Shown: piece after piece, positions 3,421 to 33,239 of the stretch | How positions within the stretch are numbered: position 1 is the first letter of the stretch | Layout: every line of letters begins with the position of its first letter | DNA from: Mycolicibacterium nivoides | Lineage (GTDB): Bacteria > Actinomycetota > Actinomycetes > Mycobacteriales > Mycobacteriaceae | NCBI RefSeq assembly: GCF_003855255.1 | Contig: NZ_CP034072.1 | Location: 558,001-622,000, forward strand | DNA: 64,000 nt | Reading direction: 5' to 3' | Notes under the pieces: model-generated | Databases searched by the model: none | Told to the model about the DNA's origin: nothing | Seen by the model: the letters and a program-made list of their open reading frames with translations, nothing else | Made by a program: the position numbers and the translations under genes

Positions 3421-3478
3421 CGAGCGACCGCTCCGGTACACGAAATGCGGCGTGTCGACGTACAGACACGGTCGCTCG
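3421..3478. repeat. 58-bp palindromic repeat, copy A
   Basis: Exactly 58 bases bounded by perfect 10-base inverted arms CGAGCGACCG and CGGTCGCTCG. The interior contains GGTACA near the left arm and GTACAGACA before the right arm. Its reverse complement aligns with copy B (19928-19985) over most of the interior with one small indel, so it is inserted in the opposite orientation. It lies between cobO and cobB. Confidence 0.85.
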
Positions 3479-3488
3479 CGGTGCTGAG

Positions 3489-18552: not shown

Positions 18553-19887
18553 ATGGTTGAGCCGGAAGGCGATATTCCGGTCACTCCCGCCACCACCCGC
18601 CGCATCGCCGGCCTGGCGATCCCGGCACTCGGAGTCCTGGCGGCCGAGCCCATCTACCTGCTGTTCGACATCGCGATCGTCGGACGCCTGGGTGCGCTCA
18701 GCCTGGCCGGGCTGGCCATCGGCGGCCTGGTCCTCGGCCTGGTCAATTCGCAGGGGACATTTCTGTCCTACGGCACCACCTCGCGTTCGGCCCGGCTGTT
18801 CGGGGCGGGTGACCGGAAGGCGGCGGTAGGCGAGGGCGTGCAGGCCACCTGGTTGGCGCTGGGGCTGGGGCTGCTCATCATCGCGGTCGTGCAGGCCGCG
18901 GCGGTGCCGCTGCTCGGGGCGATCGCCGGACATTCCGATATCGCGGGCGCCGCGCTGCCGTGGCTCCGCATCGCGATCCTGGCCGCCCCGGCGATCCTGG
19001 TGTCGCTGGCCGGCAACGGCTGGATGCGCGGCGTGCAGGACACCGCGCGCCCCCTGCACTACGTGGTGTTCGGGTTTGCGGTGTCGGCGGTGCTGTGCCC
19101 GCTGCTGGTGTACGGCTGGCTGGGCCTGCCCCGCTTGGAGCTGGCCGGTTCGGCGGTGGCGAACGTTGTGGGGCAGTGGGTGGCGGCGCTGCTGTTTCTG
19201 CGTGCCCTGGTGATCGAGAAGGTCGCGTTGGGGGTCCGGCCGGCGGTGCTGCGGGCGCAGCTGACCATGGGCCGCGATCTGCTGCTGCGATCGATGGCGT
19301 TCCAAGCCTGTTTCCTGTCCGCGGGCGCGGTGGCAGCGCGATTCGGTGCCGCCTCCGTCGCGGCGCATCAGGTCGTCCTACAGGTGTGGAGTTTCCTTGC
19401 CCTGGTGCTGGATTCGCTCGCCATTGCCGCACAGTCACTGGTGGGTGCGGCGCTGGGTGCGGGTCAGCTCGCGCACGCCAAGAGCGTGGCCTGGCGGGTG
19501 ACACTGTTCTCCACCTTGGCCGGGGTGGTGCTGGCCGTCGTGTTCGCCGCCGGTTCGTCGGTGATGCCGTCGGTGTTCACCGACGATCGATCGGTGTTGG
19601 CCGCCGTCGGGGTGCCGTGGTGGTTCATGGTGGCCCAATTGCCCGTGGCGGGCATCGTCTTCGCGCTCGACGGCGTGCTGCTGGGTGCGGGCGACGCGAA
19701 GTTCATGCGCAACGCCACCCTGACGAGTGCGCTGGTCGGCTTCCTGCCGCTGATCTGGTTGTCGCTGCTCTACGGCTGGGGCCTGTTCGGCATCTGGTCC
19801 GGGTTGAGCACGTTCATGGTGCTGCGGCTGATCTTCGTCGGCTGGCGCGCGTTCTCAGGTCGCTGGTTGGTGCCGGGGACCGCCTAG
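18553..19887 (+). CDS. dinF: MATE family efflux protein DinF
   Basis: 444-residue multidrug/toxin extrusion transporter with about twelve hydrophobic helices in two similar halves. EPIYLLFDIAIVGRLGALSLAGLAIGG covers the first helices (only the start EPIYLLFDIAIVGRLG is diagnostic) and matches Rv2836c. The ATG at 18553 lies two bases after the nrnA stop. A longer in-frame ORF from 18298 reads through nrnA and is an artefact. No dedicated promoter is visible, so it is likely the last gene of the rimP-infB block. Confidence 0.9.
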   Translation: MVEPEGDIPVTPATTRRIAGLAIPALGVLAAEPIYLLFDIAIVGRLGALSLAGLAIGGLVLGLVNSQGTFLSYGTTSRSARLFGAGDRKAAVGEGVQATWLALGLGLLIIAVVQAAAVPLLGAIAGHSDIAGAALPWLRIAILAAPAILVSLAGNGWMRGVQDTARPLHYVVFGFAVSAVLCPLLVYGWLGLPRLELAGSAVANVVGQWVAALLFLRALVIEKVALGVRPAVLRAQLTMGRDLLLRSMAFQACFLSAGAVAARFGAASVAAHQVVLQVWSFLALVLDSLAIAAQSLVGAALGAGQLAHAKSVAWRVTLFSTLAGVVLAVVFAAGSSVMPSVFTDDRSVLAAVGVPWWFMVAQLPVAGIVFALDGVLLGAGDAKFMRNATLTSALVGFLPLIWLSLLYGWGLFGIWSGLSTFMVLRLIFVGWRAFSGRWLVPGTA

Positions 19888-19927
19888 TTCCACACCGCCG
19901 CGTCGTTGGCACCGCCTCGTTGCACCG

Positions 19928-19985
19928 CGAGCGACCGTGTCTGTACGCGACACGCCGCTCTTCTCTGTACAAGTGCGGTCGCTCA
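19928..19985. repeat. 58-bp palindromic repeat, copy B
   Basis: Exactly 58 bases with arms CGAGCGACCG and CGGTCGCTCA (one arm-end mismatch). The interior contains TGTCTGTACGCGACACGCCG and a second TGTAC near the right arm, so the stem can extend as TGTAC/GTACA. It sits between the convergent genes dinF and the methyltransferase and could double as a terminator. Confidence 0.85.
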
Positions 19986-19997
19986 CGGGGGCGGCGC

Positions 19998-20609
19998 TCA
20001 CCTTCGCGTACCGCTGACCACCCAGACGGACCCCTTGCCGTCGCCACGCTCGGCCACTGAAACGTCGTCGAATCCGGTGTCGCGACACAGTGTCGCGAAC
20101 GACTCGGCCTGCTGCAGCGTCCAGCCGTGGCTCGCCAATCCCGTGGCGTCGGGAGGTGATTGACGCTCGATCGCGATCAACCGTCCGCCGGGCACGAGCA
20201 CGCGGCGTGCCTCGGCAACCGCTTTGTCGACGTCCTGCCAATGGTGCACGGTGGCCAATGCCCACACCACTGTCGCCGATCCGTCAGGCACCGGCAGGGC
20301 TTCGGCGGTGCCCACCCTCCAGCTGATGGGTGCGCGTTTCGGTGTGACCAGGCGCGCGATGCGCAGCATGGTCGACGCGGGGTCGACGCCCGTCACTCGC
20401 GCACCGCGGCGGGCGGCCACCCGGGCGGCGGTACCCGGTCCGCAACCCACATCCACGACGTGGTCCGCGGAGGAGAGCTGCGCGGTATCGGCGGCCAACC
20501 GAGCCTTCGCCCGGCCTACCAAGAGAAAGACCAGCCCGCACAACACCCCGGTGACACCCGCGAACCCAGGGTGATCGGCATGGTGATTGATCGCACGCGC
20601 GGCGTCCAT
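19998..20609 (-). CDS. SAM-dependent class I methyltransferase
   Basis: 203 residues. Motif I VVDVGCGPGTAARVAARRG (51-69), the acidic GVDPAS loop and the later RVLVPGGRLIAIER strand give a standard methyltransferase fold. A hydrophobic stretch at residues 18-31 suggests a membrane-near or lipid-like substrate, but this is a guess. The gene is divergent from a MerR regulator 46 bases away, and its promoter has MerR-type geometry, so it is probably the regulated target. M. tuberculosis has the ugp genes after dinF instead, so this pair looks lineage-specific. Confidence 0.82.
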   Translation of the reverse strand: MDAARAINHHADHPGFAGVTGVLCGLVFLLVGRAKARLAADTAQLSSADHVVDVGCGPGTAARVAARRGARVTGVDPASTMLRIARLVTPKRAPISWRVGTAEALPVPDGSATVVWALATVHHWQDVDKAVAEARRVLVPGGRLIAIERQSPPDATGLASHGWTLQQAESFATLCRDTGFDDVSVAERGDGKGSVWVVSGTRR

Positions 20610-20616
20610 GGGGTAG

Positions 20617-20647
20617 ACCTTGCCGGTTCAAGGTGGGTTGAAGTCAA
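20617..20647 (-). promoter_or_regulatory. MerR-type promoter and operator of the methyltransferase gene
   Basis: On the minus strand, TTGACT (20647-20642) and CAAGGT (20622-20617) are separated by exactly 19 bases, the over-long spacer typical of MerR-activated promoters. The spacer region carries two dyads: ACCTTG-N6-CAAGGT (20617-20634) and TTCAA-N6-TTGAA (20627-20642). The -10 ends seven bases before the ATG of the methyltransferase. Confidence 0.65.
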
Positions 20648-20655
20648 ATGGCGGC

Positions 20656-21099
20656 ATGGACGTGATCCCGATCGGCGAGGCCGCTGCGAGGTTGCAGATG
20701 AGCCCGTCGGCGTTGCGGTACTACGACGAACGTGGGCTGGTGTCCCCACGGCTGCGGCGGGCCGGCAAGCGCATGTACGGGCCCGAGGAGCTTCGCCGGC
20801 TCGCATTGCTCAAGATTGTGAACCGGTTGGGTCTTCCACTCGACACCGCGGCCGCGGTGCTCGACGCGCCGAGTGAGCAGTGGCGCGCGACGGTGCGCGA
20901 GCAGATCGCCGCGCTGGATCGGGTGATCGCGCAAGCGCAAGGGGCGCAACAGTTTCTGACGCATGCGTTGCGTTGCCCGAAAGAGCATCCCGCACGCGAA
21001 TGCGACATGATGATCGGTGCGCTCGACAGGCTGGTCGACGGGATGAGCGTCGAGGAACTCGCCACCGGCGAGGCCGGAACGGGGTGGCTCGTCGACTGA
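20656..21099 (+). CDS. MerR family transcriptional regulator
   Basis: 147 residues. The N-terminal winged helix (IPIGEAAARLQMSPSALRYY, 4-23) and the RRYxPE-like KRMYGPEELRR are classic MerR. After the dimerisation helix comes RCPKEHPARECDMM with Cys107 and Cys116 spaced C-X8-C, similar to the metal- or redox-sensing loop of CueR, ZntR and SoxR-type proteins. It probably senses a metal or oxidant and activates the divergent methyltransferase. The ATG at 20656 is chosen; the upstream ATG at 20620 lies inside the operator. Confidence 0.86.
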   Translation: MDVIPIGEAAARLQMSPSALRYYDERGLVSPRLRRAGKRMYGPEELRRLALLKIVNRLGLPLDTAAAVLDAPSEQWRATVREQIAALDRVIAQAQGAQQFLTHALRCPKEHPARECDMMIGALDRLVDGMSVEELATGEAGTGWLVD

Positions 21100-21129
21100 T
21101 CCTGCGCCTCCTCTGCCGCGCCTGCCGCG

Positions 21130-21187
21130 CGAGCGACCGCAGATGTACGCGACACACCGGGCGTTGCTGTACAGACACGGTCGCTCG
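21130..21187. repeat. 58-bp palindromic repeat, copy C
   Basis: Exactly 58 bases with perfect arms CGAGCGACCG and CGGTCGCTCG. The interior has TGTACGCGACACACCGGG and CTGTACAGACA. It shares GTACGCGACAC with copy B in the same orientation and the right half GTACAGACACGGTCGCTCG with copy A. It lies between the convergent merR and echA16 genes. Confidence 0.85.
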
Positions 21188-21227
21188 CGGTGCAAGGGGC
21201 ATCGCGGTGCCAGGAGGGGCGGCAGTG

Positions 21228-21983
21228 TCAGCGCACCTGCGCGCGCCCCCGCTCGATCACGGCACCGCGGTTGGCCGCGATGTCGTCACCGGTGGCCGTC
21301 GCCATCCATTCGCGCGCCGAGGCAGCCTCGATCCAGAGACCCTGATCGGTCTGGGACGCGTCGATGCGGTGATACGAGGCGAGCAGGGCCCGGACGGCGG
21401 CCTGATTGTTGGCGACGATCGAGGCGGCCACCCGGCGGGCGGCGGGCAGCAGCTCGTCGTGGGGGACCACCTCGGTGACCAGGCCGGCGCGCAGGGCCTC
21501 GGCGGCCGAGAGGTAGTCGCCGGTGAGGCTCATCCGACGGGCCAGGCCCACGCCGACCTTCTGCGGCAGTCGCACGCTCAGGCCCCAGGTCGGCAGCAGA
21601 CCCACCCGGGCGTGGGTGTCCGCGAACTTGGCCTGCTCCGAGGCGATCAGGATGTCGCAGTACAGCGCCAATTCCAGGCCTCCGGTGACCGCGGCGCCGT
21701 TGATGGCCCCGATCACCGGTTTGGTCATCGCGGGCCATTTGGGGGAGATGTCGGGCAGTTCGGTGGTGTCGCCGAGTTCCTTGAGATCCAGGCCCGCGCA
21801 GAACACCGGGTCGGCGCCGGTGAGGAGGACGACGTCGACGGCGTCATCGGCCTGTGCTGTGCGCAGCGCACCGTAGAACTCCGTGCGCAGCTGCGTCGAC
21901 AGCGCATTGCGCGACTCGGGCCGATTCAGCGTCAGGGTTCGGACCCGGTCGGTGGTATCGATCAGCAGCACTGGATCGGTCAT
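21228..21983 (-). CDS. echA16: Enoyl-CoA hydratase/isomerase (EchA16-like)
   Basis: 251-residue crotonase-fold protein likely acting in fatty acid or sterol side-chain beta-oxidation. The oxyanion-hole motifs are TGADPVFCAGLDLKEL (about 54-69) and NGAAVTGGLELALYCD (about 93-108). The sequence closely resembles Rv2831 (echA16) as remembered, including WPAMTKPVIGAINGAA. The catalytic Glu positions of true hydratases are not obvious, so the substrate and reaction (hydratase or isomerase) remain open. Its promoter faces that of DUF2277. Confidence 0.87.
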   Translation of the reverse strand: MTDPVLLIDTTDRVRTLTLNRPESRNALSTQLRTEFYGALRTAQADDAVDVVLLTGADPVFCAGLDLKELGDTTELPDISPKWPAMTKPVIGAINGAAVTGGLELALYCDILIASEQAKFADTHARVGLLPTWGLSVRLPQKVGVGLARRMSLTGDYLSAAEALRAGLVTEVVPHDELLPAARRVAASIVANNQAAVRALLASYHRIDASQTDQGLWIEAASAREWMATATGDDIAANRGAVIERGRAQVR

Positions 21984-33052: not shown

Positions 33053-33239
33053 TTGTTCCTGCGAGTCATATCGGGCCCGCCTGGTCGGGCGGTCTTCGGT
33101 AGTGGCAGCCGGAACCCCATTGCGGGGCCCATCCGGCCGCTTCGATCGACGGCCGTAGCCGTAACCAGGGCCCGTGGCGTATCGCCACCGTGACGCCGCG
33201 AAAACAGTTGAATGAATTCGAAAGAGGCCAACGGACTCT
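33053..33239 (+). promoter_or_regulatory. pnp leader region
   Basis: The 292-base gap between lppU and pnp holds no convincing gene. The part from 33053 contains GC-rich inverted repeats, including CCGG-anchored pairing around CCCC-ATTGC-GGGG near 33113-33142, and ends with GAAAGAGG before the ATG. PNPase mRNA leaders are often structured targets of RNase III and PNPase itself; that role here is inference. Confidence 0.35.

Follow-up and report, generated by a model that had tools for sequence, protein, structure and literature searches.

The window studied here, 64,000 nucleotides of the Mycolicibacterium nivoides chromosome (C1:558001-622000), holds three similar palindromes between genes, which raises the question of what they are and which gene, if any, belongs with them. 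Copy A (3421..3484, minus strand) has arms at 3421-3430 and 3469-3478, followed by an outer CGGTGC at 3479-3484. Copy B (19921..19985, plus strand) consists of an outer TGCACCG (19921-19927), a left arm (19928-19937) and a right arm (19976-19985) whose last base is A. Copy C (21130..21194, minus strand) has arms at 21130-21139 and 21178-21187 and an outer CGGTGCA at 21188-21194; its interior is inverted relative to its arms, as though the loop had flipped. A sequence-only reading of the window had claimed identical 10-base arms at 38-base spacing. This is exact for A and C, but B ends in ...GGTCGCTCA, one base off; the arm pattern found no match in 100 shuffles of the window. The opposite orientation of A and B was confirmed: with TGTCTG placed left, A is minus, B is plus and C is minus.

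B and C occupy convergent gaps, as had also been described. Copy B lies at the 3' end of a MatE-family gene (18556..19887, plus strand; start codon provisional) that converges with a methyltransferase gene (19998..20609, minus strand), and copy C lies at the 3' end of an enoyl-CoA hydratase gene (21228..21983, minus strand) that faces a MerR-family gene (20656..21099, plus strand). The top strand of each copy is co-directional with the outer gene of its gap, and the copy lies 40 nt past the stop of that gene, MatE for B and the hydratase for C; the methyltransferase stop is 12 nt from B and the MerR stop 30 nt from C. Copy A runs against both its genes, being antisense to the flanking cobO-like and cobB-like genes, which are both on the plus strand. 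Elsewhere in the window an Actino-pnp RNA (RF01688) was matched at 33088-33157 (plus strand, 53.2 bits), and no Rfam family at the gathering threshold covered the palindromes.

A search with the arms of the whole genome, a single contig of 6,905,961 bases, recovered 19 strict copies and none for the reversed control. With the core word the number rose to 24, and a profile built from these 24 copies found 34 distinct places at E<=1e-3, which excludes a repeat of fewer than five genomic copies. Dispersal in related species, where the sequence-only reading had proposed to search, was found as well. The strict half-element pattern had matches in 149 of 296 genomes of the genus, with 0-40 per genome (counts sum both strands, and a perfect palindrome can count twice), while the reversed control gave two matches in one genome. 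An exact search for GTGTCTGTACGNCGACACGCCG returned at least 120 stretches, and all 80 loci among the matches listed were mycobacterial. The profile model matched 27 of 41 relatives, 23 of the same genus and 4 others weakly (best E 6.6e-4), and one exact element pattern had no matches in viral contigs. Chance palindromes were rejected on the 19 copies against no control matches; together with the half-element counts this already refutes chance or an alignment artefact, to which we assign practically no probability. The palindromes are a real mycobacterial repeat family.

The length of the repeat had been given as exactly 58 bp. This holds for 18 of the 19 strict copies, but one is 59 bp long and the conserved unit extends past 58. 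From the left it consists of a pyrimidine-rich lead, TGCACCG, CGAGCGACCG and then TGTCTGTACGNCGACACGCCG; the arms CGAGCGNNCG covary and the left interior is the conserved stretch used in the exact search above, conservation being much higher on the left side than on the right. Among 197 genus copies the offset to the right arm is 48 bases in 140, 49 in 53 and some other value in 4. The left arm contains a variable dinucleotide, often TG or AC and less often GG, GC or CG. In 161 of 202 copies, against 74 expected, this dinucleotide was complementary to its partner, which is covariation. In the 24 copies of M. nivoides, terminal inverted repeats were present and 88.5% of 504 stem cells pair; an inner stem, considered as a candidate inner pseudoknot, is paired in 88.3% of the cells in this genome, and no position was seen to change on both sides at once. 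By eye the right interior takes at least two forms, near CGTACAACTG or TGGCATTCTG, and relatives carry a second right-hand interior that does not pair. The consensus ends of the 24-copy alignment carry neither a GTAG nor a CGTC tag.

Several copies are altered at the left end. Tandem duplications of about 17-27 bp, with units ending at or near CGCGAG, were seen at L120, L188, L226, L308, L062, L007 and L195, and one 17-bp duplication of the M. nivoides genome is single in G267. Among 298 copies, CSGCGAG words numbered 32 upstream (26 locus-strands; shuffles gave a mean of 8.5 and a maximum of 17) and 6 downstream, and their reverse complement 15 upstream and 16 downstream. The duplications fit cutting after CGCGAG, and they fit replication slippage at a hairpin as well. 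Inverted element pairs about 100-170 bp apart, with no room for a gene between, were seen in G221, G204 and G100.

Where the copies lie relative to genes was assessed with a simple gene finder in 90 contexts (24 from M. nivoides and 66 from other genomes), 28 of them on overlapping calls that were treated as unreliable. Of the others, 28 were convergent and had the top strand in the sense of the left gene; the tandem contexts comprised 24 co-directional and 8 opposite cases; one context was divergent and one fell at an edge. The top strand was co-directional with the left gene in 52 of 61 clearly called copies, at a median distance of 16 nt from stop to arm and within 60 nt in 50 of these 52. 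The claim that the repeat is found only in gaps does not hold strictly: of 30 copies whose outer right-arm base is A, 29 have TCA at that point, possibly the TGA stop of the convergent gene lying inside the element.

These positions are what one would expect if the palindromes were purely functional 3' hairpins, that is I-shaped (U-tract-free) terminators or transcript-end stabilisers under host-gene selection, two of which the DUF559 gene described below would own by happenstance. The proximity to stop codons agrees with this explanation, as do the tandem bias (24 against 8, P=0.007), the 12-nt lead with 68% pyrimidine against 44% after the right arm (202 copies) and, in G100, inverted pairs in convergent gaps with one element per gene (for example L219 and L221). 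The available text of PMC12288462 describes U-less mycobacterial terminators lying no more than 50 bp from stops, although it also cites a paper that has a U-tract requirement of mycobacterial polymerase in its title. A terminator, however, could do without three features of the family: the conserved interior of 22 nt, the stem variant shared across a genome, and the nuclease gene between bracketing copies. G-U wobbles favoured the top strand only marginally (41/924 against 11/474, P=0.052, with the outer pair left out), and the first count, before the outer pair was left out, had given no asymmetry; the overlapping, uncertain gene calls under 28 of the 90 contexts also weigh against this explanation. 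We regard 3' hairpin function by itself as unlikely to account for the family.

A matching transposase was the next element of the sequence-only reading, which had seen none in the window. A partner gene does exist outside the window, but it is a DUF559 nuclease gene and not a classical transposase. A Y1 (RAYT, PF01797) transposase was rejected as the partner, with no PF01797 match in the M. nivoides genome and a positive control in 5 of 14 genomes. The DUF559 gene was found via close inverted element pairs about 1.05-1.09 kb apart. It lies at 4.76 Mb (G000:C1:4764603-4765508, minus strand), encodes about 300 amino acids and has inverted copies on each side whose left arms face outward. Its neighbours in this genome, as read by eye from their translations, are ytfP-like and amidohydrolase-like, and this reading showed no AbiEii toxin gene beside it. 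We took the 30 best protein matches among 296 genomes, picked by protein alone and including M. nivoides itself. The element flanked the homologue on at least one side in 30 of 30 and on both sides, inverted, in 28 of 30 (model E<=0.01). It was present on both sides at E<=0.1 in a further 22 loci, chosen partly for holding elements. The flanks of 16 other PF04480 genes gave one weak element match (E 0.0066).

Gene and repeat also occur together across genomes. A homologue at 1e-98 was present in 29 of 35 genomes having at least 8 strict matches. Over the 296 genomes, 107 had gene and element, 34 the gene only (a 1e-98 homologue with no strict element match), 42 the element only and 113 neither (P=1.7e-17, kinship uncorrected; this was one of five thresholds tried, with P<1e-10 at all five). 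In three genomes (G201, G255 and G256) the element matched 8-17 times and no homologue reached 1e-40. Palindromes were absent from the flanks of a remote homologue in Nonomuraea, and at L251 and L252 the DUF559 homologue was matched as two pieces, apparently broken. The partner protein had one remote match among plasmids (38% identity over 35%), in a chromosome-sized 11.9-Mb record, and one remote match among phages (34%). This near-absence is in keeping with tnpA-REP genes as the accessible part of PMC8266576 describes them.

By fold comparison and residue invariance, the partner protein likely joins an AbiEi-like DNA-binding half to a Vsr/homing-endonuclease-like (EDxHD) nuclease half. In Pfam, DUF559 passed its cut-off, while a C-terminal match to REase_MTES_1575 and an N-terminal one to AbiEi_4 fell short of theirs; PADLOC AbiEi models match residues 7-197. 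The AlphaFold model (pLDDT 88.4, pTM 0.83) matched the AbiEi antitoxin 6y8q in Foldseek (E 1e-5). Its C-terminal domain matched I-Bth0305I at E 0.004 (TM of target 0.65-0.75) and Vsr at E 0.045, the nuclease-domain matches between E 0.004 and 0.3 being I-Bth0305I, Vsr, the R2 endonuclease and TnsA. Residues E195, E199, D231, E242 and H249 are invariant in 39 sequences. The antitoxin similarity, and the element upstream of the partner gene itself, could mean that the protein is a regulator and the palindromes are the operators of its regulon. The copies, however, lie mostly behind genes and not in promoters, and a regulator does not account for nuclease residues conserved without exception, so that this reading is very improbable.

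The unit of element, gene and element was found at about six sites. Among 72 chosen loci, 61 were at ytfP/amiA1, many of them by construction because ytfP was bait, 7 at a hydratase/acyl-CoA-dehydrogenase site, one after sdhB, one in G100 and two elsewhere. In the ytfP-amiA1 interval, 27 of 30 loci were readable. The element was seen by eye in 13 (two degenerate, one inverted), and 11 of these 13 had the gene; none of the 14 element-free loci had it, and two of those had a stub such as CCGCGAGC. At L237 a different long palindrome (TTTGCCCGCCTCATAGCGACAA...) stands behind the ytfP orthologue. The distribution between these loci fits homing, with solo palindromes as targets of a free-standing homing endonuclease and a cut solo copy repaired from a unit elsewhere, converting an element into element-gene-element. 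A C-terminal fold near I-Bth0305I points the same way, and a palindromic target would explain the inverted brackets. Homing by itself does not explain new solo copies at many sites, however, and the 72 loci hold only those few unit sites; we consider it quite improbable as the whole explanation.

The sites themselves are stable. In 43 of 56 site-by-relative pairs (14 M. nivoides sites, four relatives) the gap was measurable, at 52-172 bp in 37 and 751-8185 bp in 6. The comparison of filled and empty sites that the sequence-only reading had proposed was largely one-sided: of 18 alignments, 17 were filled and one was empty (G244 at 6339198), and at this sole empty site, where the alignment is poor, no target-site duplication was visible. 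Movement thus appears slow, since nearly every alignment was filled. Sites persist within a group while the stem variant differs between genome groups, which argues for concerted change of the kind that conversion or an enzyme acting in trans would produce.

The stem variant connects the scattered copies to the partner gene. Where both bracketing copies were readable, their stem dinucleotides agree in 41 of 45 loci (by eye; the other 7 of 52 loci were left out as not readable on both sides). Most scattered copies of a genome share the bracketing dinucleotide in 22 of 25 genomes against 6.7 expected by shuffling. This count is uncorrected for kinship, includes some genomes with only 1-3 scattered copies listed, and leaves out G207 (no majority) and four ties (G262, G232, G214 and G264). 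For 12 genomes, whose results are part of this pooled count, predictions were fixed beforehand, with bracketing copies excluded from the scattered counts; 8 held, one failed, one tied and two had no entry, which is 8 of the 9 decidable, although elements are shared by descent and counts across genomes are not independent. Among the matches listed, GC held in G221 (18/19), G204 (21/23) and G206 (9/11), GG in G191 (14/14), CG in G312 (16/16), AC in G195 (7/10) and G116 (7/9), and TG in G188 (11/13); G264 tied, and G165 and G254 were the two with no entry. The failure was G112, where scattered copies are mostly AC and the bracketing copies TG, and where a second homologue has an AC neighbour copy. 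The cognate rule is broken in G273, G313 and G112.

Some other DUF559 genes have different repeats of their own. Inverted repeats in the flanks of 6 of 16 other PF04480 genes (four genomes) scored 25.5-43 against a control maximum of 16 (43 window genes); their arms mostly look palindromic themselves and differ from gene to gene. The remaining 10 do not exceed the control, and some show hairpins by eye. The genes concerned are at L260, L264 and L265 (M. nivoides) and at L267, L271 and L273, and some of their repeats are dispersed. For the three of these genes that belong to M. nivoides, the palindromes recur in the genome at about 16 places in one case, 9 in the second (two of them partial) and 4 in the third, counting the bracketing copies. 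DUF559 genes in general were rejected as cargo of the 58-bp element, as only one of seven PF04480 matches in M. nivoides carries it. At L275 a DUF559 gene lies between palindromes of type GAGCAGACG...CGTCTGCTC, which presumably resemble palindromes of M. tuberculosis. In the records examined, mycobacterial DUF559 genes are named 'hypothetical', 'DUF559' or 'AbiEi antitoxin domain', and the literature on DUF559, in the extracts available, gave no link to palindromic repeats. We see an even chance that these genes as a group form a new class of repeat-propagating system, in which a Vsr/homing-endonuclease-fold nuclease with an AbiEi DNA-binding domain would have its own palindrome family per gene, spread and homogenised by cutting, without HUH transposases.

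Taken together, bracketing, dispersal, arm covariation, cognate matching and 3'-end position make up a REPtron-like association that is strong for a computational result. The palindromes are probably the dispersed non-autonomous members of a mycobacterial REPtron-like system with an unrelated nuclease. The sequence-only reading had called them REP- or MITE-like. REP-like behaviour was found, in that many palindromes are scattered at the ends of genes, have a gene of their own between bracketing copies and differ in their arms from genome to genome, but the GTAG/CGTC tag and the Y1 transposase are lacking. We infer binding, cutting, copying, the direction of spread and any RNA or terminator role. 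Recognition of the palindrome by the protein would depend on the conserved left half together with the variable dinucleotide of the stem, and the cut may fall in or close to the left stem, perhaps behind CGCGAG. Repair would copy or convert elements, and in this way the stem variant seen in the bracketing pair would be maintained in most copies of a genome. Just past stop codons, where a hairpin may be harmless or may help to form the transcript end, new copies would survive.

A single enzyme class normally accompanies REP-type repeats, and if the proposed system is real, the REPtron lifestyle has evolved more than once. Mycobacterial DUF559 genes would also gain a likely role, and the system could account for several families of palindromes in this medically important genus; the link is directly testable with one protein and one oligonucleotide. 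As described in the available portions of PMC8266576 and PMC3733652, REP/RAYT (TnpA-REP) REPtrons likewise have palindromes scattered at the ends of genes and a chromosomal gene, mostly in low copy number, that has its cognate palindromes next to it; the presence of that gene also correlates with repeat number. They differ in their Y1 HUH enzyme, in contrast to AbiEi plus PD-(D/E)XK here, and in a GTAG/CGTC tag and a palindrome of 20-40 bp, in contrast to no tag and 58 bp or more. In TIRtrons (TIRYT), as PMC3733652 presents them in part, inverted repeats also bracket the gene and some are dispersed families, but the enzymes are tyrosine transposases. The I-shaped mycobacterial terminators of PMC12288462 share U-less hairpins soon after stop codons, and the available text describes no conserved interior or dedicated gene for them. 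VsrA of Caulobacter has a Vsr-like DUF559 nuclease domain, but in the accessible part of PMC12907096 it is studied as a proposed mismatch-repair endonuclease, with no palindromes mentioned there. Two stem-loop families of M. tuberculosis, Myt-1 (75 copies of 72 nt) and Myt-8, compared by their description in the portion of PMC2267715 available, are similar to the present family in size and number.
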